This document shows, in pieces, positions 1 through 22,902 of a DNA stretch of 26,396 bases. The translations under genes were made by a program, and so were the position numbers. The notes beneath the pieces were generated by a model. It was not told the DNA's origin. It did not search any database and saw only the letters and a list, made by a program, of their open reading frames with translations. Positions within the stretch are counted from its first letter, which is position 1. Every line of letters begins with the position of its first letter. Where the stretch lies: IMG/VR virus record IMGVR_UViG_3300031754_000065, positions 1 to 26,396 of that record. The stretch is one strand, 5' to 3'. Source of the DNA: a virus.

Positions 1-1799
1 AACATATCCTGCTTGTCGCTCCAGATGATGAGCGAGCCAGGCAAATCAGCCATGCCTGAAATGTTGGCATTCTGGATTGGAAGCGTAACTTGATTAAGAG
101 GGGCGACGGATTCTTGCGGCAAGCCGGCAGTGGTGCTCTCGATATTGGTGAAGAAAAACGTTTGCCCTGGGATGGTGCCGCCGTAAATTAGTAAACGCGC
201 TTGATATTCCTTGAGAAAAGCACCTACCGGAGGTGGCACGTTAAAAAGCTGGCTGACTTCCGTGGTGAAAGGGAAATACGGAGGTTCGGAATTGGCGTTA
301 TCAAAGAACTGAAGGCCGCTACTGACAAGATTGGATGACATCGGATTGAACGCATTACGCTGTATCCGAAGATAGGTAGCGCCCCCGTCCGCTGAAGCGT
401 ACAAGCGGATGTGCGTGGCTTGCGGGTCGTAGATCTGAAACACAACATTCGTTAATGTCCCGCTGCTTCCAGTAACGGTCATAGAAGTCGCGCTGGCAAC
501 GGCAATGACGCGCCCCAGAGAATTTCCGCTTCCGCTTCCGCCCTGCCATACATAACGGCCTATCCACGCGGATGTGAACGCCGTGCCTATTCCAGTTATT
601 ACCGTAGGACCAGTGGCTTGGTTTGGAGCGGATATAGTTCCTTGTTCTACAAGTTGAATAACTCCATCCTGGGCGCTGTACTGGATAAACTGGGTTGCCG
701 GAGAAGGCGCTCCTACATGATTCTTATTGAAGTTCTCCCATGCATAAGCATAAGAACGGCCTACGGACTTCGTGATGTTGGTATTGACCGTTCCGGTTGG
801 CGTGAGAAGGGCCGTGTTCTGTCCAAGTTGCGCCCATGTCAGAGTCGCCGTGCCCGAGCCGGTCAGCACAAGGAAAGTTCCAACGAAGCTAGTATCTCCG
901 GTGGCGATCGTCACATTCACCATGCCTATGCCGTTCCCGCCAGGGACGGTCAAAGCTCCGCTTAGAGTGACTGTCACCACTCCATTGCTGCGCTGAATGT
1001 TCGTTATGGTTTGCGATGCACCAGCGCTGATAACCACTTGCGGGGAAACATCGGGAGCGTCCAACCCGAATCCTTCGATGGTTGCGGCATTAGCAAGACG
1101 CCCAGCCTGCTTCACTTGGCCGTTCATCTCATAAAGAATGTTTTGTAGTGCTTCGCGCGACCACGGCCCATTTAATGCAGCAACACCTTGCCCGCCAGGG
1201 TCCACCTGTATGTTGATGCGCTGAATCGCTGCATAGCTATTTCCAGAATCAAAGGAAAATAACTTTCCATTGGTATCTGCCAGCAAGTAATTGCTCAATC
1301 CAGGTAATGCAAAATATTTGAAAGTTGTGTAGGGAAGTCCTTGCGCTACATATCCAGGCGTGACCGTGCCAGTAGTTCCAACTCCGAGATTTAGAGCAGC
1401 AATCACATAAGTGAATTGCGTGGCGCTGTTGATGCCGAATACCACAAACAGACCGTTATATGCAGGAATGTTGGACCCGGAAACAGTTATGATTTGCCCC
1501 ACGGATAATCCGTGGTTGACGGTAGTAGTGACCGTCGCCAGGTTAAGTCCGGCTTGCTGTACTGTTCCTATTTCCGTTGAAATGGCAACGGCCGCTCCCT
1601 GCGTGGTGCCATTGAGCAGATTTGCAAATCTAGCCCGCTGTACAAATCCAAAAGCCCCGGAGAATACGTTTTGAGCGGCAGCCCATTGCCGTGGATTGCA
1701 AAGAGTTGGATCTGTGTAATTATTCAAGCCAAGATTCAGCGACGCCAGCGTTTCTGCTGGAGCCGATTGCTGTGCGCGAGTTGGAGATTTCTGAGCCAC
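1..1799 (-). CDS. Large tail-associated structural protein, partial (possible nozzle/tail-tubular-B-like)
   Basis: A single frame stays open from a GTG at 1799 through the left edge of the window, giving about 600 residues with no stop; the C-terminus is missing. The GTG lies one base after the TAA of the upstream gene and is preceded by GAGG. The sequence is rich in Gly, Thr, Val and Asn with alternating beta-strand patterns. A stretch around residues 165-185 (YLLADTNGKLFSFDSG) resembles blade repeats of beta-propeller phage tail proteins. It directly follows the adaptor-like gene, the order seen for adaptor then nozzle in short-tailed phages. The structural role is inferred from position and composition; I do not recognise the family with certainty. 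It could instead be a baseplate or fibre-attachment protein. Confidence 0.75.
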   Translation of the reverse strand, partial: MAQKSPTRAQQSAPAETLASLNLGLNNYTDPTLCNPRQWAAAQNVFSGAFGFVQRARFANLLNGTTQGAAVAISTEIGTVQQAGLNLATVTTTVNHGLSVGQIITVSGSNIPAYNGLFVVFGINSATQFTYVIAALNLGVGTTGTVTPGYVAQGLPYTTFKYFALPGLSNYLLADTNGKLFSFDSGNSYAAIQRINIQVDPGGQGVAALNGPWSREALQNILYEMNGQVKQAGRLANAATIEGFGLDAPDVSPQVVISAGASQTITNIQRSNGVVTVTLSGALTVPGGNGIGMVNVTIATGDTSFVGTFLVLTGSGTATLTWAQLGQNTALLTPTGTVNTNITKSVGRSYAYAWENFNKNHVGAPSPATQFIQYSAQDGVIQLVEQGTISAPNQATGPTVITGIGTAFTSAWIGRYVWQGGSGSGNSLGRVIAVASATSMTVTGSSGTLTNVVFQIYDPQATHIRLYASADGGATYLRIQRNAFNPMSSNLVSSGLQFFDNANSEPPYFPFTTEVSQLFNVPPPVGAFLKEYQARLLIYGGTIPGQTFFFTNIESTTAGLPQESVAPLNQVTLPIQNANISGMADLPGSLIIWSDKQDM

Positions 1800-1800
1800 T

Positions 1801-2823
1801 TTACCTCAAAAACGCCCTATTCCTGCGACCGATACCGTAGGGGAATCTTTGCTTAGTTGGAGGATTATTGCTTTGCCGCTCTATTAGCGAATCCAGCATC
1901 ATTTGATTGTTGCGCGTTGAAATCGCCGTCCATTCCGATACCCGTGAATCATCCCCAGCCAGAGAATACATGTTCCTGACGGCAAATGAAGCAATCACGC
2001 GGATGTGCTCACGCGGGATCTCCGGCAGCGCAGCAAGAACATAGGGAGAGCCAGTAGTTAGGGCGGGGGAGCAAGATGTCTGCGTAGTCAAAACTGTGTC
2101 GCTAGTGATGGCCGCAATGCGATAGATTTGATTCGGACCATTGACCTGCCCAGCGACAACCAATTCAGCTTGAATTTCTTCTTGTTGTCCGGTAGTCGGA
2201 ATTCCAGTTGCCTGGAAATCAGGCTGCAAAATCTGGGTGAAGTTTGTCCCTGACCCGGTTACCGTCGCACCGGAGGAAGAAACCGTGCCAGCGAAAAGAT
2301 AGTTCAGTGCCAGCGGCCAGAATGTGTACGTGAATTCAATGATAGTTCCTACAGCTAATGGCAGCGCCCACACAATGTTTCCGCGGCCGTTAAGCCACCA
2401 ATAATAAGGCCCGGTTTGCGTTGGCTGTGCCGCCGCATTGGCGGCCAGGGAAGTGAACTCGGGATCGTTCGGTGTCATTGAGCGCGTGCCCTGATACAAC
2501 CCTCCGTTTGGCGATTGCACACGAATCCTGGTAATTTGGTACAAGCGATTAGATAGCACTCCGCTCAATATGCCTACCGAGGAAGTGTTGAAAAGCAGGT
2601 CGAAAGAAAATCCAGAAGTCGTGACTGTTAATGTCTTGATATTCGTGAAATAGTGATTCTTGAGCTTTGAGACTTCTTCCCAGACGTGCACGTAAGCAGC
2701 GTTGATTTCGCGCAAGTACTCGCTAAAGTCGTAGCCTGGAACACGTTGAGCGCAATACTGCACCAAGCCAAAGACGTTCGTTGGCGGCGAAAGAAGAGTC
2801 GGAACTGGTTGGGCTACTGGCAT
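1801..2823 (-). CDS. Putative head-tail adaptor-like structural protein, 340 aa
   Basis: The frame is open back to 3171, but the first 116 codons are a shadow of the upstream gene. The supported start is the ATG at 2823, which overlaps the upstream TAA as TAATG and gives a protein beginning MPVAQPVPTLLSPP. The N-terminal 70 residues look helical (YDFSEYLREINAAYVHVWEEVSKL), as in adaptor proteins that bind the portal. The rest is beta-rich with Gly/Thr-rich segments, and the C-terminus is basic (GIGRRNRAFLR). Its location between the spike-like genes and a giant beta-rich protein fits a ring component of a short tail. The adaptor role is inference; a generic virion structural protein is the safe call. 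Confidence 0.75.
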   Translation of the reverse strand: MPVAQPVPTLLSPPTNVFGLVQYCAQRVPGYDFSEYLREINAAYVHVWEEVSKLKNHYFTNIKTLTVTTSGFSFDLLFNTSSVGILSGVLSNRLYQITRIRVQSPNGGLYQGTRSMTPNDPEFTSLAANAAAQPTQTGPYYWWLNGRGNIVWALPLAVGTIIEFTYTFWPLALNYLFAGTVSSSGATVTGSGTNFTQILQPDFQATGIPTTGQQEEIQAELVVAGQVNGPNQIYRIAAITSDTVLTTQTSCSPALTTGSPYVLAALPEIPREHIRVIASFAVRNMYSLAGDDSRVSEWTAISTRNNQMMLDSLIERQSNNPPTKQRFPYGIGRRNRAFLR

Positions 2824-3288: not shown

Positions 3289-5709
3289 TCAATTTGCCGT
3301 ACACGTCGTTCGCCACGTATCGCTAGCTGCTGGCGCTGTTGCAGCGGCGACATCGCTAAACAATTGCAGTGTTACAGAAGTCGTACTCGCTCCATTGTCA
3401 GTTTGCTGGATGATAAAGTTTGTCGTTGAGATCGCGCTTGTATGATTCGCTTCGCAGTGCCAGTGATGAGCCGCTGCTGGCATTGTGATCGTGCAACCAC
3501 CAGAGGTCGGGGCGGTACCTGTAAATATATCAAATGACGAGGTGCCGTTGGCATTCTGGATGGCTGCTACTGTGCCGCCACATCCAGCACCGGCGATGGT
3601 GGGGGCGGTCGGGGAAATAAGAAGCGACGTAGCAGCGAGCGAGCCACCAGTCCCGATAGTCTGAGCGGCTGTCCAAGTATTCGCAATCCCAACTAGCGGG
3701 ACTCCTGAAGCCGTTCCATTGTTATACGCGCATTTAATCCCATGATATGTAGAATCGCCATAGCAGGTATCCGTACCGGCGCCGGTTGGATTTGGCGCAG
3801 TGCTTTCGGCCCAAATAGTGCCTACTTGCCCTACGCGGTCAGCATTACTTGGCTTTGAATCTCCGATATTCTGAAACCACATGTTTGTGTTTATAGCCAA
3901 TGTCCGCGTTACGCCGTCTGGAACTTGATTCCCAATAAACGTGCTATTTGTCACATTTGAGTCTACGATGTCGAGGGATGCTCCCAGCCCGCTGAATGTA
4001 TTTCCGACGTAGACTCCCTTATCGGCACCAGCCCCGAACGCCAAACCTCCACCAGTTGCTTGTCCGTTATCGTCCCAAATCTTTGCACCCATTATCACGG
4101 TATCTGAAGCCGCAACCGTGACGAGCGCCTGCGTGCCACGGGCATTGGCAAACTCGCCGCCGATTACAGTATTGTGCACATCGGTAGTGCCGATCTGAAG
4201 CTGATTATTCGTATTGAACTTTGCGGAACAGTTTACGAAAGTATTGTAGGTGTTGACAGTTCCGAAGGTGACGATTCCAGCACCTTGATTATCGTTGCTC
4301 TGTACGTTGGTAAAACGATTGTGGTTAGAATGGCTCTCGATGCTCACGCCGTTGAATCCGGTAGCCACAGCTTCCACCGATATGTTGGTGAAGAGATTAT
4401 AGGATGAGTTGAAAAGTTTAAATCCACGCCCTCCACCAGACTGCGTGTGGTTCAGCAATAAGTCAGAAAAAGCGCTGTCTTGTGTCTGCGTAAATGTATA
4501 TCCAAAAGACGAACTCGGTAAATGCTCGACTTGTACGTCATGCGCCGTATCGTGCGTCTGCTGAATCAAGTAAAGGCAGGCTGCTCCGGTATTCCCACAG
4601 TTGAACATCATTAATTCATGGATGTTGTTATTGTGGCCGTAGGTGGCATACACACCAGCACCCTGCATTCCAGTTAGATTGATTTGAGAAACCTCACAAT
4701 TCACGCAAGAAGTTAGTACAATGCCATTGGTATTGACATTGCTGTTACCAGTCGCGTCGATCTTCAAATTACGAACACGGATGCCGTTTGATACGGCAAG
4801 AATTTGCATTTTTGCTGTATTCGCCGTCGTGAATCCCCCAGCCACAAAGATTTGCTCGTCGCTTGTTATCACGTCTCCGGCAACCGAAGTGATGCGCCCT
4901 ACTTGACTGTTCACGATGGCCGCTGAATCAGTTAGGAGATAATATGCCCCGGCAGCAGCACCGATTGCCGCAGCGCCTCCAGCGGTAAGAGTAATTGTGT
5001 TCGAGCCTTCTGCTGAATTTGATGCAAGATTAGCGCTAGTTCCAGGCCCACTACCGGCAATATTCAATGCATTGATGGCTGAGGACCCAGTAAGTTGGAT
5101 AAGCGTACTATCACCACCGCCTTCCAAAAGCACATTGTTCAAATTGCTTAGAAAGGTAGTCGTTGAGCAAGAGAGTGTAAGATTTGGTGGAATCACGAAA
5201 TGGGAGTTTGATCCTCCAGCGGTAATCATGGAAGTCAACCCCGCGCAAGTCTGAGGATAAGTTACACCGTCAAGATAGAGTGTTTTATTGAATTGCGTCG
5301 TCGTCATTGCCCCCGTCAGCGTTGCTGTCCCGCTTACGGTGAGAGAGGTCAGAGAAGCCGCTCCAGATGCTCCTACAGATACATCGGGCTGCACGAAAGG
5401 CGTGGCGATAGCTGGTCCATAAATCTGTATCGTGTAGGTTCCAGGTACGGCATAAAAAAAGAAATTCCCGTTAATGTCCGTGGTTGTTGGATTGATTCCG
5501 CCGCTTGTTGTTATCGTGCTGGTTGCAAGGGTGGCCAGCGTCGAGCAAGGTGTAGTTGAAATATTGGCTGGCTGAGTACAAACGGCGACGTTCTGATTGG
5601 CCAGCGGGATGCCGCGCGAGTTTATGACTTGGGATTGAAACCTTGAACTCTGTGCCCAGACGCTAGGTGCCAACAGGAGCAGGCTGCTTAGGATGAGAAG
5701 CCTTCTCAT
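3289..5709 (-). CDS. Tail-spike-like protein with signal peptide and parallel beta-helix, 806 aa
   Basis: The start at 5709 is fixed by AGGAGG six bases upstream and by an immediate signal peptide (MRRLLILSSLLLLAPSVWA, cut before QSS). Residues about 20-105 look like a carboxypeptidase-regulatory or Ig-like domain, including GTYTIQIYG. From about 140 a pectate-lyase-like right-handed beta-helix begins. Through about 310-560 it shows repeated short turns rich in Asn, Gly and Ser, with strand motifs such as VRNLKIDATG, CEVSQINLTG and HNRFTNVQSNDNQGAG. A separate C-terminal domain with paired Cys (690-806) may trimerise or bind ligand. The fold is typical of polysaccharide-binding or -degrading tail spikes. 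Catalytic residues cannot be assigned from sequence alone. The first 47 bases overlap the upstream gene. Confidence 0.85.
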   Translation of the reverse strand: MRRLLILSSLLLLAPSVWAQSSRFQSQVINSRGIPLANQNVAVCTQPANISTTPCSTLATLATSTITTSGGINPTTTDINGNFFFYAVPGTYTIQIYGPAIATPFVQPDVSVGASGAASLTSLTVSGTATLTGAMTTTQFNKTLYLDGVTYPQTCAGLTSMITAGGSNSHFVIPPNLTLSCSTTTFLSNLNNVLLEGGGDSTLIQLTGSSAINALNIAGSGPGTSANLASNSAEGSNTITLTAGGAAAIGAAAGAYYLLTDSAAIVNSQVGRITSVAGDVITSDEQIFVAGGFTTANTAKMQILAVSNGIRVRNLKIDATGNSNVNTNGIVLTSCVNCEVSQINLTGMQGAGVYATYGHNNNIHELMMFNCGNTGAACLYLIQQTHDTAHDVQVEHLPSSSFGYTFTQTQDSAFSDLLLNHTQSGGGRGFKLFNSSYNLFTNISVEAVATGFNGVSIESHSNHNRFTNVQSNDNQGAGIVTFGTVNTYNTFVNCSAKFNTNNQLQIGTTDVHNTVIGGEFANARGTQALVTVAASDTVIMGAKIWDDNGQATGGGLAFGAGADKGVYVGNTFSGLGASLDIVDSNVTNSTFIGNQVPDGVTRTLAINTNMWFQNIGDSKPSNADRVGQVGTIWAESTAPNPTGAGTDTCYGDSTYHGIKCAYNNGTASGVPLVGIANTWTAAQTIGTGGSLAATSLLISPTAPTIAGAGCGGTVAAIQNANGTSSFDIFTGTAPTSGGCTITMPAAAHHWHCEANHTSAISTTNFIIQQTDNGASTTSVTLQLFSDVAAATAPAASDTWRTTCTAN

Positions 5710-6292
5710 TTTTGGCCTCCTGTTCCTTGTCGCGCCGCATCAGCAAGCGCTCAAGCGTCCCGGCAATCTGCTCTCCGACTGCTTCGCCTGGGTGGCGCTG
5801 CGCGCGCATGGCTTCGACTGAATAAGGCTTGGTGAGTCCCAAGATCGTGTAGCATTTGTCCTCGTATGGCGTGGGCTTGGTGCGGCCCTGGCCAGTTACT
5901 TCCTTTTCCCGCACCTGGTTTTCGTACCACTCGACTTGGCTCATTCTGAAAGCCAGGCTAAGCTTCTCGCAGTCTGCCGCCACCGCCTTTTTCTCATCTT
6001 CGCTTGGAGCATGGTCAAGCAGAACGACGCCACGCTTCCCGAACTTCGTGCGGATAGGCCCGGAAATATCCTCCATGTAAATATATTCCTGGTGGCCCTT
6101 TTTGTCTGTCCAGTCGTAATGCCGTATAGTTGAAATACGGCTTGGCAGCGCCATCCATTCCTTGCCAGGAAGAACGCCAACGCTGAACCCGCCATGCCGG
6201 ATATACTCGCCATCCGGTGTGTAGCCGGGAGTGCCCATTAAGTCCGGGTCAGGCAAAGATTCATGCGAGTAGATGTACCAGTTTCCAGCCAT
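5663..6292 (-). CDS. Hypothetical protein in structural operon, 209 aa
   Basis: ATG at 6292 follows the stop of the 131-aa gene by one base. The protein is soluble and mixed alpha/beta, rich in Trp/Tyr near the N-terminus (MAGNWYIYSHESLPDPDLMG). A charged helical middle carries the sequence SEDEKKAVAADCEKLSLAF, and the C-terminal tail is Lys/Glu-rich and probably disordered. There is no signal peptide, membrane segment or recognisable catalytic motif. It sits between two other small unknown genes and the beta-helix spike, so a role in tail or spike assembly (chaperone or capping) is plausible but only by location. The last 47 bases are shared with the spike gene in another frame. Confidence 0.8.
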   Translation of the reverse strand: MAGNWYIYSHESLPDPDLMGTPGYTPDGEYIRHGGFSVGVLPGKEWMALPSRISTIRHYDWTDKKGHQEYIYMEDISGPIRTKFGKRGVVLLDHAPSEDEKKAVAADCEKLSLAFRMSQVEWYENQVREKEVTGQGRTKPTPYEDKCYTILGLTKPYSVEAMRAQRHPGEAVGEQIAGTLERLLMRRDKEQEAKNEKASHPKQPAPVGT

Positions 6293-8601: not shown

Positions 8602-9867
8602 TTAGTATCCGGTCGGCACAGATAGGCCGAGTGTCTTTACATGGGCATTCGGAACGTAAGACCCCAGATTTCCACGGAAGATGAGGTACGCAACGAAGGC
8701 ATCCGTGTATTGGCCTGCGGTCGCAGACGGCACCTGCCGCAGAATCGAGCCTGTGCGGTCGTCAAAGCTGAGTTCCCTCGCCACGACTTTGAACATCACG
8801 TCGCGGTCCACGCCGAAGATGTGGTCCTTCGGGCTATCAGTGTCAATAATCCACGGGAAGCCTTCCCACTCTACGGCTGTATAGCCTAGGTCCAGTTTCT
8901 TGTTTGCGTCATTGAAGCGCTTGAGCGTCCAGCCCATGTCCATATAGGCATGAAGCTGTGATGGATGGCTCAGAAATTCGAGGGACGGAGAAACCCGGCC
9001 CTGCAAAATCTGAACCGTCGCAAGCATCCTGCGGAGATGATCGCGCGCCAAAGCCGGAGAGCCGGACAGAGAAATTACTCCGGCATTGTATTGCGGGTTG
9101 GTAGAGCGGTTGATGTTCTGGAACGTTGTCGATATAGCGCCGTTGTCCAGAATGACCTTCAGACCTGAAATGACGTTGTTGAAGGAGTCCGAAGCACCCG
9201 TAGAACCGGTGATAGTCACGATGTCGCCGCTGGCAGTGGTAAAAGCCACGTTGGTGGGGCCAATGACGAAGTTTGTCTGCGTGGCATCTTCAATGGCGCC
9301 AGTCATCGAAACGATTGTCCCGGTGCCGCGGACTGTCGAAGTCGCGCCGTTGTGAATAGCCACCTGCATCCCCGGCCGGAGCCAGTGCGTTCCCTCGATC
9401 GAGCCGGAAGCCACCAGCGTCGAGTTGACTGTAGTGGAAGTAAGGACGGCTGTGCCGAGAGTGGCGAGAGCGCCAGTACCGTCAAGGAACCCGTAGATAT
9501 TCAGGTATTTGATGGCGTTGATTGTCGCCATCTTGATGTTGAAAGCCAGGGCCCTTGCATACGTCACGGCATCATTGCCAGCCGCATCGAGCGCCGCGCC
9601 AGTCAGCTGAACGGAAAGCTCAAAACTGAAAAACGAAGCCAGCGCGGAGGCCAGGGACTCTGAACCGCCAGAAACGAGGTTGCCGCCATCGGAGTACCAG
9701 TTGAATGCGGCATTGGGGTTCAGGTGCGTCGGGATTTCCATGCCCCTGTTCGATATGGGAATGCCCTTGCCATCGGCGTAGCGGTTCCACAGAACTGCGG
9801 CACTATTGAACTGCTTGGAAATGCGAGGATTGAAAAATATTTTCATCAACGGCGCTGCGGCCGTCAA
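8602..9867 (-). CDS. Major capsid protein (HK97-fold type), 421 aa
   Basis: This is the main shell protein. The order portal, scaffold, capsid and the sequence style identify it: an N-terminal arm (SKQFNSAAVLWNRYADG), a helical spine region near residues 95-130, and a C-terminal A-domain-like part with SHPSQLHAYMDMGWTLKRF and DRDVMFKVVARELSFDD. A Gly/Thr-rich beta domain around residues 155-225 (HWLRPGMQVAIHNG) appears inserted. The longest frame begins with TTG at 9867; an ATG at 9846 would shorten the protein by seven residues. Neither has a clear Shine-Dalgarno sequence, which is odd for the most abundant virion protein. The capsid role is strongly supported by context; the exact fold is inferred. 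Confidence 0.88.
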   Translation of the reverse strand: MTAAAPLMKIFFNPRISKQFNSAAVLWNRYADGKGIPISNRGMEIPTHLNPNAAFNWYSDGGNLVSGGSESLASALASFFSFELSVQLTGAALDAAGNDAVTYARALAFNIKMATINAIKYLNIYGFLDGTGALATLGTAVLTSTTVNSTLVASGSIEGTHWLRPGMQVAIHNGATSTVRGTGTIVSMTGAIEDATQTNFVIGPTNVAFTTASGDIVTITGSTGASDSFNNVISGLKVILDNGAISTTFQNINRSTNPQYNAGVISLSGSPALARDHLRRMLATVQILQGRVSPSLEFLSHPSQLHAYMDMGWTLKRFNDANKKLDLGYTAVEWEGFPWIIDTDSPKDHIFGVDRDVMFKVVARELSFDDRTGSILRQVPSATAGQYTDAFVAYLIFRGNLGSYVPNAHVKTLGLSVPTGY

Positions 9868-9899: not shown

Positions 9900-10757
9900 T
9901 TAGCGCGCGTTTTGCAGAGCCTTGGCCAGACCTTCCTCGGTGGCTTCCCAGGAATCCGAAATTGCTTCTGGGATTTTCAGTGATTCAGGGCCTCCCGAGT
10001 AGGTGAAACTTGCGCCATTCTGCACGTTATCGCGCTGTCTTTTTTCCGCTTCAGCGGCGGATTTCTTATCGGATGCCCAATCCTCGATGATGCGCTTGAA
10101 GGCCGGAGCCACATCCACGAAATTACCGTTGGAAACGCGGCGAACTGCTTCAGGATCGGCGGCAAGTTCCGTGTTTAGCAAAGCCCGCACTGCTTTCTGC
10201 TCGGTCTTTGTCATGCCAAGGTTCTTGATGCCGTCCTGTCCAAAGATGTCATCCACGCGGGCATTGAAGCGCGCTTGCGTTGCCGCAAGTGCCGTTGCCT
10301 GCTGGCGTCTTTGTTCCTGCGTTTCAAATCCGGTAACTCGCTCGGTGAGCGACCGTACCTGCTGCATCAACTCTGAGTCTTGAGCCTTTCCGTCTGCTTT
10401 CTTCTCGCCCTTGTCTCCGAAGAGTTCAACGTACTCTTCCGCAATCGCGTCGCGCAATTTGCTTGCGCCATCGGGATTGGCACTGGCGTAGTTTTTTACA
10501 AACTGCTTCGGATCGGTGTCCAAAAGCGCACGAATGCTGGCAAGCGCGTTGGGCGCTTCTAGCAACGTGTTGATTTGCGCTTTATTGTAGCCACTATGGA
10601 GAATGGTTCTTCCTATCTCAGCGGCTTCCGCCTCGGCCGGGTCAGCGATGACTGGCTTTGGTTCCTCGGCAGGTTTCGGTGGTTCCTTCGGCGCAGCAGC
10701 GTCCGCAGGATTCGGCGAAACAGTCACATCCTTGAGTGTCGCGTTCTCGTCGGGCAC
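9900..10757 (-). CDS. Scaffold-like capsid assembly protein, 285 aa
   Basis: GTG at 10757 is preceded by AAGGAGG with good spacing. The first 45 residues are Pro/Ala/Glu-rich and disordered (PKEPPKPAEEPKPVIADPAE). A long charged helical region follows, with coiled-coil character around ELMQQVRSLTERVTGFETQE, and then a helical C-terminus. No enzymatic motif is visible. Acidic, helical proteins of this size between portal and major capsid genes are normally scaffolds that guide procapsid assembly. A fused protease is not seen: there is no Ser/His catalytic signature. Confidence in the role is good from context. Confidence 0.85.
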   Translation of the reverse strand: MPDENATLKDVTVSPNPADAAAPKEPPKPAEEPKPVIADPAEAEAAEIGRTILHSGYNKAQINTLLEAPNALASIRALLDTDPKQFVKNYASANPDGASKLRDAIAEEYVELFGDKGEKKADGKAQDSELMQQVRSLTERVTGFETQEQRRQQATALAATQARFNARVDDIFGQDGIKNLGMTKTEQKAVRALLNTELAADPEAVRRVSNGNFVDVAPAFKRIIEDWASDKKSAAEAEKRQRDNVQNGASFTYSGGPESLKIPEAISDSWEATEEGLAKALQNAR

Positions 10758-15678: not shown

Positions 15679-17169
15679 CTACCGCCGCGAGAGTACTACG
15701 CTTGGTTTCAAAAATCTAGTGAATCTTGAGCGCGCGAACTGTACAGGGGCCTCTTTCTTATCGCCTTCGCGCTTGTGTTTCTCGGCTTCGTACCAGTAAA
15801 GGGCGCTCGTGGCGTTGAGCGCGGGGTTCTGCCATGCTTTGGCTGGAGCTATTTTTTCTGGCTCCGGCCTGAACGTGTGGATGGCGTAGCGGATGGCGGA
15901 AGGGCTATGGGAATTTTCGTGGGCTGGCTCGAATTTTGGATTTCCGCTGCGGTCTTTAGCCCACTTGTACGTTGCCATTTCCCTGATTGTGTGACGGCAT
16001 CGAGAAGAACAAAAATACCTAGGTGAACCCACAATCGCCGGATTGAATGGATGGGCGAGCCTGGGATCAATATGCATGTACTGCTCGGTCTTGAATAGTC
16101 CTGGAGTGACTTCCTTGATGGCTGGCTGGCCATAGATGCCGTGTTCTTCGAGCTCGAGGGCAGCCGCTCTTTGCGCATAGTCGTAGGCTATTCCTTCGAC
16201 AGGGTGATTTCCAATCTTAGCGTGCATTTCTTCGCTGATTGGACGGATTCTGAGCCCGGAACCATAAACCTCATCGTACTGATATAGGCGACCATCGGGA
16301 GCGACGGCGATGATTGGGATAGCCCATGGATCGCCTTCTTCACCTCCACCGATATCCATTCCCACAATAATCGGCCAGTCAGACGGGGGATTGACTCCTC
16401 CTGCAAAGATGTCGTATTCACGGGATTCGTTCCAGACATGAGTATCCTCCGAGAATTCTTTGAAGATCAGATCCGAAAAATCAGCAAAAGAGCCATGGAT
16501 GAACCTATCGGCCCAGTCCGGGGGATAGGTATTTAGCATGTTTTCGATGGTTTCGGACGGAAGGAACACGTTATCCATGCTCGACATGGTAATTCCGAGG
16601 TTCGTTTGCAGGGCTTTTTTGCGGTTGGGATCGAAAAAGTGCCTCCAAACCCAGTCGTGGCCGGCCGGATTCGATGCCAGCCTGATAATCCGGCGCGGGG
16701 CGGTCTTTCTGCGCACGCCGCCGAGGATTACGAAGTAAATTTCCTCGCTAATCTCCACGGCTTCATCGATAAAGGCCGCCGACAGGTTCATGCTCTTGAT
16801 ATGGCCGACTACTTTGGGGTCGGTGATGTCCAGGTGCTTGAAAATCGTCTGATGGCCGTTGCCCCACTGGAAAATCTTCTTCGATTCCTCCCATTTGCCC
16901 CAGCTTTCATCTACCAGCTCGAGGAAAATCTGCATAGTGGAGGTTTCAAGGGCTGGCATATTCAGGCGCCCTATCAAAGAAACGCCATTAGGGTCGGCTG
17001 CAGCAAACGTTATGGCTGCGCCCATGAGGACAACAGACTTCCCTGATCCGCGGCCGCCAACAATCGCCGCCATGCGGTTATCGGAAGCCAGGAATTGATG
17101 CTGTTTTGGAGCTTGTGGCAGGTTATCAATGAACTGCTTGAAAGTGAGTTCGCCTGTGCGGACGCCCAT
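15679..17169 (-). CDS. terL: Terminase large subunit (packaging ATPase and nuclease), 496 aa
   Basis: This is the motor that cuts concatemeric DNA and pumps it through the portal. Walker A is GGRGSGKS at residues 38-45, and Walker B with the catalytic Glu is AAFIDEA at 131-137. A coupling-type motif follows around LASNPAG. The C-terminal RNase H-like nuclease starts with VGMDIGGG (Asp272) and continues with a second acid in GIAYD (Asp330); near 418-430 the segment HENSHSPSAIRYAI replaces the more usual D..DALRY ending. The length fits the family. ATG at 17169 overlaps the upstream stop as ATGA. Confidence is high. Confidence 0.95.
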   Translation of the reverse strand: MGVRTGELTFKQFIDNLPQAPKQHQFLASDNRMAAIVGGRGSGKSVVLMGAAITFAAADPNGVSLIGRLNMPALETSTMQIFLELVDESWGKWEESKKIFQWGNGHQTIFKHLDITDPKVVGHIKSMNLSAAFIDEAVEISEEIYFVILGGVRRKTAPRRIIRLASNPAGHDWVWRHFFDPNRKKALQTNLGITMSSMDNVFLPSETIENMLNTYPPDWADRFIHGSFADFSDLIFKEFSEDTHVWNESREYDIFAGGVNPPSDWPIIVGMDIGGGEEGDPWAIPIIAVAPDGRLYQYDEVYGSGLRIRPISEEMHAKIGNHPVEGIAYDYAQRAAALELEEHGIYGQPAIKEVTPGLFKTEQYMHIDPRLAHPFNPAIVGSPRYFCSSRCRHTIREMATYKWAKDRSGNPKFEPAHENSHSPSAIRYAIHTFRPEPEKIAPAKAWQNPALNATSALYWYEAEKHKREGDKKEAPVQFARSRFTRFLKPSVVLSRR

Positions 17170-21534: not shown

Positions 21535-22074
21535 CTAATTGATAGTCGTCTCTGAAACTGTCCCCGTTCCGCCCAGCAGTGCATACGTGTAGTACGTAGT
21601 GCATCGCCCATAGCGGCAAGTTGTGTGCTTCGTCACCGAGTAGCTTGCAATTACCCCCCAGCCGACGAGCAAATTATTGCTGTTCTCGTAGGTTCCGTAC
21701 TCGCCAGTGTAGTACGGGCAGGTCGTATCGCCTGGAACCATGAATTGATCGCCTGTATGCGTGCCGTCGCCCACCGTGTAAGCCTTTTGCCCCCATGCGA
21801 TGGGGTTGCAGTCGGCTAAGTAGCCATTGTTCAGAAAGCCTAGCTCGAACGGAACATCGATCGATGATCCCCAACCGCCGCCAAATGCGGTATTCAGCGA
21901 AACCGCTCCCATGTCAGCATAGGGCGGATTCGCCGGGTCGCTGCCGTTCCAGGTGGTGATTTGTGATGCTGCGTTGAATGTGAAACCCGCGGATAATGCG
22001 ACAGTCCCTGATTGCGCATAGACTACAGTGGCACCCAAGACAAGCAGGGCTAGGATTGCTGCTAGTTTCTTCAT
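21535..22074 (-). CDS. Secreted Cys-containing protein, 179 aa
   Basis: ATG at 22074 follows AGGAGG. Residues 1-20 are a clear Sec signal peptide (MKKLAAILALLVLGATVVYA, cut before QSG). The mature part is beta-rich with four cysteines (DCNP, TTCPYY, TTCRYGRCTT) and a Thr/Tyr-rich tail. The pattern suggests a small exported, disulfide-stabilised beta protein. It is coupled to the 269-aa secreted gene upstream and followed by a terminator, so both form one unit. The function is unknown; a periplasmic or surface effector, or lysogenic conversion, is possible. Confidence 0.8.
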   Translation of the reverse strand: MKKLAAILALLVLGATVVYAQSGTVALSAGFTFNAASQITTWNGSDPANPPYADMGAVSLNTAFGGGWGSSIDVPFELGFLNNGYLADCNPIAWGQKAYTVGDGTHTGDQFMVPGDTTCPYYTGEYGTYENSNNLLVGWGVIASYSVTKHTTCRYGRCTTYYTYALLGGTGTVSETTIN

Positions 22075-22092: not shown

Positions 22093-22902
22093 TTACTGCC
22101 CCTCGTACAGGATTTGGCCGTTATAAACACATTCGTCAGCGTCGCAGAGCGAGCCTAGCCCGCATTGCGTGTTGTAGTCGTCGTCGAGCATGTTGGGAGA
22201 AACGCCGCCAGTGTTCTCGTAGACTTTCCAGCCGTCAATGTGCACTGTCGCTGTCGTATTGCATGGCGTGTTCGGGTCCGCAACGAGAAAGCCTGTGTTG
22301 ACGTTGCCGCTGACAGGATAGCTGAAGCTGACGGTGCTGGTCCAAGTTACTCCGTCAGTGCTGTACTGCAAGTCGAATCTGGCTGTGTCGCAGACGAAGT
22401 TCTGTCCCCAATGCGTGCAGTTCTCGCTGAAATACATCCACATCTTGATGGACTGGAAATTGGTGAAAGCGTAAGTGCTGCCGCTGTAGAGCAGATTGTT
22501 CGTGAAAGCCACACGATCGACGTGGTACAGCTCCACGGTCGCCGTCGCATTGCAGATATACTGGTGGAATTTGTTGTAGTAGCAGGACTGCCTGGCATAG
22601 ACGCAAGCGTCCAGCTCGTCCCGGCCATCCGAGCCTACTTGATGGCAGACGAGCGTTTCCGGGTGCATGCCGACGTAGCCGTTGAAAGTGAAATTGTCGA
22701 ACTCTTCCTGCCACTGGGGCATGCAGAGATACAACCCGCCAGTAGAGCCGCAATCCGGCTGCGCGTGAGCGATGTTATAGCCCACATCCAGCGAATTGCC
22801 GCTGTTGAAGAGCCCTTGCCCGCTGCCAGTCTGATACCACTGCGCATTAGCTGAAAACGAGCCCAAAAGAACCACCAGTAAAGCTAGTACTAGTCTTTTC
22901 AT
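22093..22902 (-). CDS. Secreted Cys-rich beta protein, 269 aa
   Basis: ATG at 22902 overlaps the stop of the frameshifted gene upstream (ATGA) and has AAGGGA ahead. Signal peptide residues 1-20 (MKRLVLALLVVLLGSFSANA, cut before QWY). The mature protein has about 13 cysteines and strands resembling a concanavalin/LamG-type sandwich (TGFLVADPN, then VHIDGWKVYEN, and ARFDLQYSTDGVTW). These are features of carbohydrate-binding or secreted adhesin domains. No enzyme motif is certain. Size, signal and cysteines imply folding outside the cytoplasm. Confidence 0.8.
   Translation of the reverse strand: MKRLVLALLVVLLGSFSANAQWYQTGSGQGLFNSGNSLDVGYNIAHAQPDCGSTGGLYLCMPQWQEEFDNFTFNGYVGMHPETLVCHQVGSDGRDELDACVYARQSCYYNKFHQYICNATATVELYHVDRVAFTNNLLYSGSTYAFTNFQSIKMWMYFSENCTHWGQNFVCDTARFDLQYSTDGVTWTSTVSFSYPVSGNVNTGFLVADPNTPCNTTATVHIDGWKVYENTGGVSPNMLDDDYNTQCGLGSLCDADECVYNGQILYEGQ

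Follow-up and report, generated by a model that had tools for sequence, protein, structure and literature searches.

The window analysed here is a fragment of 26,396 bases from an IMG/VR virus, and the arrangement of its virion operon appears podovirus-like (Table 1). Identification of the terminase large subunit and of the major capsid protein through PHROGs and Pfam bears out the virion-operon setting given in the initial annotation. The gene under study codes for a tail-spike-type protein, hereafter the spike, and shares its strand with these two genes, a position in the virion structural operon that is characteristic of tail spikes. The ORF, its start, the AGGAGG motif and the signal peptide that had been described without mention of the strand are all present on the minus strand, where the frame runs from 5709 to 3289 with its ATG at 5709-5707; the same interval read on the plus strand has no open frame. 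The smaller signal-peptide protein encoded next to the spike has a homologue that also comes after a spike in a related locus (L004).

Table 1. Position of the genes, domains and signals identified in the window.
Feature	Position	Strand	Remarks
Probable tail nozzle protein, cut by window end	3..1799	-	Size, gene order, resemblance
Probable head-tail adaptor	1801..2823	-	Gene order, resemblance
Second signal-peptide protein, 152 aa	2823..3281	-	Directly downstream of spike; MRAPILVICLFIIALRVFGA, cleavage before QL
Signal-peptide tail-spike-type protein, 806 aa	3289..5709	-	15 Cys, all in mature part
C-terminal domain of spike, residues 699-806	3292..3615	-	4 Cys; common to other spikes
Beta-helix-like region of spike, residues 328-518 (weak)	4156..4728	-	PF13229, E=0.0017, below cut-off
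Transthyretin/CarboxypepD_reg-like domain of spike, about residues 20-115	5365..5652	-	AlphaFold2, Foldseek, family alignment
Sec signal peptide coding region, residues 1-19	5653..5709	-	Cleavage between VWA and QS; divergent sequence in relatives
Conserved 209-aa gene directly upstream of spike	5663..6292	-	End overlaps spike start by 47 nt
Shine-Dalgarno AGGAGG	5716..5721	-	6 nt before ATG
Major capsid protein	8602..9867	-	0 Cys; PHROG 14242, E=1e-31
Probable portal, 859 aa	10793..13372	-	Size, gene order, resemblance; no PHROG or Pfam match
Terminase large subunit	15679..17169	-	PHROG 2, E=1.6e-40; PF04466

Residues 1-19 of the spike (MRRLLILSSLLLLAPSVWA, then QS) fit a Sec signal, with a charged n-region (RR), an uncharged hydrophobic core of 12-14 residues and an AxA-type cleavage motif, VWA, followed by Q at +1. 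A predictor built on simple rules, which asks for a positive n-region, a hydrophobic core free of charges and small residues at -3/-1, is positive for 0.27% of shuffled N-termini versus 6.4% of the called gene starts in these phages. Among the genes of at least 200 aa of P22, T7, Microbacterium phage Shocker and Tunturi_3, taken together with those in the first 50 kb of Tunturi_5, it is positive for 0/127. The reading of the first 19 residues as a Sec signal is thus upheld both by motif anatomy and by comparison with shuffles and control phages; these, together with recurrence across the clade, rule out a chance signal. The cleavage region is uniform in 38 non-redundant signal proteins (Ala at -1 in 34/38, Gln at +1 in 30/38), whose signals have a median length of 19 and cores of a median 14 uncharged residues. 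Such uniformity favours cleavage over a retained anchor. The initial annotation had also considered that the signal is retained as a membrane-insertion segment of the virion; a variant of this reading has the uncleaved N-terminus ejected. Hydrophobic N-termini in all close relatives and a 425-aa protein without clear cleavage site (G015) are compatible with this proposal, which is nevertheless disfavoured by the short cores, the near-invariant cleavage motif and the even-cysteine bias of the mature parts, and is very unlikely.

An even number of cysteines is a mark of proteins that pair them in an oxidising compartment. The mature count is even in 35 of the 38 non-redundant signal-bearing proteins of at least 200 aa (binomial p=3e-8), compared to 27/48 signal-less proteins with at least 6 Cys and 36/95 with at least 3 Cys, and the cysteine content is 2.4% in signal-bearing versus 0.66% in signal-less proteins. 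The window spike, with its odd count, is one of only three exceptions among the 38.

The most widely shared part of the spike is the domain found right after the signal (residues 20-115), which carries Cys44 (codon 5580-5578) and Cys55 (codon 5547-5545). HMM searching identified 24 distinct signal-bearing copies, 20 recognized by the predictor and four by eye (L034, L043, L046, L002), along with 33 that lack a signal. The two cysteines, in the motif VCTQPAN...PCS or one of its variants, are present in 24/24 signal-bearing versus 0/33 signal-less copies, a few of the latter covering the C-terminal half of the domain alone, where the motif is unreadable. The second cysteine is usually replaced by proline in the signal-less copies with a readable motif (VCTQPAN...PPS), and these relatives often have a single cysteine in the whole protein. 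In several of them the frame starts only at the domain itself, so that a signal would have no space. Some of the signal-less relatives occupy the same virion slot as signal-bearing ones, and two are encoded between adaptor- and nozzle-like genes (L010, L013). These two continue into TVTSVAMTVP-type repeats, which resemble those of tail fibres. The signal state requires at least two changes in the tree, and the association between signal and cysteine pair, as read from the aligned sequences, appears strong as a pattern but made of few independent events. Homologues beginning downstream of the signal, named in the initial annotation as an argument against it, do exist in part, in the form of the 33 signal-less relatives, but these make up a largely separate group without the cysteine pair. 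They indicate that in other phages the domain is a normal component of virion tails, and are no evidence that the spike signal is spurious. Note that two phages with the signal-less domain have sugar-nucleotide/glycosyltransferase-like genes just after the fibre gene (L014, 9483-16345; L016, 7479-13934), a gene run possibly involved in surface-glycan modification.

Disulfides are also known from phage Milano, whose virion proteins, receptor-binding ones included, are disulfide-linked (PMC10811340). This precedent supports a reading in which no cysteine pairing occurs before release, by analogy with the disulfide-locked Milano virions, and the N-termini are unused for export. The two systems are alike in that disulfides occur in tail and receptor-binding proteins, as proposed for the window spike; the Milano bonds are however intersubunit bonds of sheath and baseplate, and signal peptides are no part of that account. 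Pairing after release leaves unexplained the signal peptides with their cleavage motifs, the cysteine pair that tracks the signal within one domain family, and the rarity of cysteine among those virion proteins of the clade that have no signal. Its probability is very small.

Structure prediction, proposed in the initial annotation, was successful for the N-terminal domain alone (AlphaFold2, pLDDT 89.6), while the full-length model is unusable (pLDDT 35.5). Foldseek matches the N-terminal domain to transthyretin-like/carboxypeptidase regulatory domains in the PDB. Among the named entries of a viral library it best matches members of the pectate-lyase superfamily from uncultured Caudovirales phages, together with the Pantoea phage Vid5 tail spike and with tail collar/fibre proteins. 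The spike thus has an N-terminal domain of virion-anchor type and a conserved end with a variable remainder, as tail spikes do. The beta-helix of the initial annotation, which in tail spikes is right-handed, corresponds to a Pfam match below cut-off in the middle of the protein and, since full-length modelling failed, stays a weak claim. PHROGs and PDB sequence searches with the spike gave nothing useful. The C-terminal domain recurs in 14 other loci with its four cysteines in all of them; the predictor finds a signal in 11/14, one more has a signal-like start (L144), and in L140/L141 the signal-like stretch sits inside a longer frame. A further locus (L003, 3733-6339) has a signal-like stretch and spike domain in frame with an upstream fibre-base-like stretch; the two parts may be fused in this frame of 869 aa, or translation of a separate protein may begin at a GTG at 4114.

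The window spike shares with podovirus spikes (P22 gp9, pectate-lyase-like) its virion-operon position, a tail-spike-like N-terminal fold, a variable middle and conserved ends, and perhaps, on a weak match, a beta-helix. It differs from the tail proteins of P22 and T7, which have no signal peptide, by its signal, cleavage motif and paired cysteines, and so departs from the usual signal-free state of tail spikes, seen in the tail genes of P22, T7 and Shocker.

The signal-bearing spike is a recurrent element of the clade. Relatives were retrieved through the portal-like protein, so that contigs were not picked for signals, and some operons adjoin a contig obtained in this way; those counted are the ten operons of the clade that reach past a large Cys-free ejection-protein-like protein (561-792 aa). 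All ten have, within the next few genes after this protein, one to four large signal-bearing Cys-rich proteins in the tail-spike slot. The highest number is found in G018, with four consecutive signal-bearing proteins of 767-1016 aa. Signal-bearing genes are also found between the portal and major capsid protein genes in some relatives (G003, L024) and, as in the window, before the adaptor gene in G010. Some relatives also carry signal-less fibre-like genes (567 aa in G017; 352 and 390 aa in G011), which rules out that all fibres of the clade are exported; the exported proteins therefore need not be the sole receptor-binding proteins of these phages. Close homologues of the spike were found only in other IMG/VR contigs. 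In cultured phages, tblastn gave no match to the spike, to its C-terminal domain or to the N-terminal domain in its signal-less form, and scans of bacterial genomes found no relative of the spike, hence no host link by homology. Note that G010 (78.7 kb; L097/L098, L084/L085) carries two complete related virion operons in succession, each with its own signal-bearing spike, an arrangement explained either by two neighbouring genomes or by chimeric assembly. No flanking host DNA was seen in this contig, the remainder being the second phage operon.

Large signal-bearing proteins with even cysteine numbers are likewise found among the tail genes of three phages cultured on Acidobacteriota, Tunturi_1, Tunturi_2 and Tunturi_4 (PP887698, PP885685, PP885687). 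Tunturi_1 is a podovirus of Tunturiibacter, of the Acidobacteriota (PMC11924767), a paper whose main text does not mention signal peptides. Its signals are carried by gp12 (1190 aa), gp13 (675), gp14 "tail spike" (919), gp16 and gp17 "virion structural protein" (1184). Every large spike/fibre-type gene in the examined part of the genome has a signal. The podovirus Tunturi_2 has the same signal-bearing set, with gp14 annotated as pectin lyase. In the siphovirus Tunturi_4 signals are found in gp113 and gp114, and also in gp111 if this gene is read from a start upstream of the annotated one. The latter, a "tail fiber" (L094, PP885687, 10076-13171), appears misannotated, since its frame can be followed upstream from the annotated GTG over 119 codons to a TTG at 10076, and the longer product carries a signal peptide. 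There are no signals among the genes of at least 200 aa of Tunturi_3 and of the first 50 kb of Tunturi_5. As Tunturi_3 shares its host strain with Tunturi_1, the trait belongs to certain phages and not to the host. The core virion proteins of the Tunturi phages have no detectable homology to those of the window's clade; the trait thus occurs in unrelated lineages.

In tailed phages that have been well studied, spike assembly takes place in the cytoplasm. The window spike, in contrast, would follow a pathway that begins with its translation late in the virion operon, as judged from gene position. It would then be exported by the host Sec machinery with cleavage of the 19-residue signal, and the mature protein would fold in the oxidising periplasm, where the cysteine pairs of its N- and C-terminal domains would form disulfides. 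These two steps, which derive from sequence statistics and comparison, are taken together as very probable. Export of a tail-spike-like virion-operon protein before lysis, as the initial annotation had suggested, is well supported and extends far beyond one genome. When the inner membrane is breached at lysis, the spike would meet virions assembled in the cytoplasm and could dock on them by its transthyretin-like N-terminal domain, perhaps on a fibre-base protein without signal whose gene, in related phages, immediately precedes the spike genes. Attachment to virions is suggested by the gene slot, the anchor-type fold and the signal-less tail homologues; docking across compartments needs a post-lysis step, which is a counter-point to the pathway. 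The complete chain, in which a receptor-binding or depolymerase-type tail spike is exported and joins virions, is assigned a probability of roughly 0.5. In its general form the proposal, which has slightly less than an even chance, is that virion assembly may draw on two compartments in several lineages of tailed phages that infect diderm soil bacteria, Acidobacteriota at the least. Heads and tail stubs would come from the cytoplasm and receptor-binding spikes, Sec-exported and disulfide-folded, from the periplasm, to be joined only when the envelope breaks.

The main rival reading, close to the display or release considered in the initial annotation, has the same export and disulfide bonding but places the protein outside the virion, as a secreted or surface-displayed polysaccharide binder or depolymerase built of tail-spike domains. 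Its target would be the infected (or lysogenic) cell or the surrounding matrix, with roles in spread of the progeny, receptor blocking or superinfection exclusion. The signal, cysteine and module evidence fits it equally, and it is favoured by the presence of multiple copies within one phage (four consecutive genes in G018), the separate signal-less fibre gene of some operons (G017, G011) and the pectin lyase annotation of Tunturi_2 gp14. There are also precedents. Pantoea WceF is a glycosidase with a tailspike-like fold from a bacterial EPS cluster (PMC7949094), in which this fold works outside a virion, and lambda Lom is an exported outer-membrane protein encoded between tail genes (PMC12309495). 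The wceF gene is however chromosomal, while the spike gene lies in a virion operon. Lom, fOg44 Lys44 and SAR endolysins (PMC6116005, PMC12309495) likewise use the host Sec pathway before lysis, but they are lysis enzymes or lysogenic outer-membrane proteins and the window protein is of tail-spike type. The N-terminal domain has a tail-spike-like fold and occurs without a signal in tail modules of other phages, signal genes fill the spike slot in every operon covered, and all large spike/fibre-type genes in the examined part of Tunturi_1 bear signals, all of which argues against a role away from the virion; such a role is somewhat less probable than virion attachment.

Searches of open-access papers found no report of signal-bearing tail spikes, and in one paper absence of a signal peptide is used in support of a phage origin of receptor-binding proteins (PMC6199706). 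If the spikes are exported, this rule fails for whole groups of soil phages, and genes that determine host range may be overlooked or taken for secreted enzymes of the host. Export would also introduce a new step of assembly or host manipulation, testable in the cultured Tunturi_1, _2 and _4, and disulfide-stabilised spikes would offer a possible route to environmental stability. The assembly route would be categorically new if virion attachment is true. The recurrence of the export signal in many related soil phages and in three cultured phages of Acidobacteriota suggests that in some tailed phages a part of the tail is folded beyond the cytoplasm, for which textbook assembly has no place.

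Other features of the window lie away from the spike gene. Two further signal-peptide proteins are encoded in tandem upstream of the terminase region on the minus strand, a product of 179 aa with 4 Cys (21535-22074) and another of 269 aa with 12 Cys (22093-22902). The portal-like protein carries a CxxC...CxxC insertion (CGNC...CPGC) that is zinc-ribbon-like.
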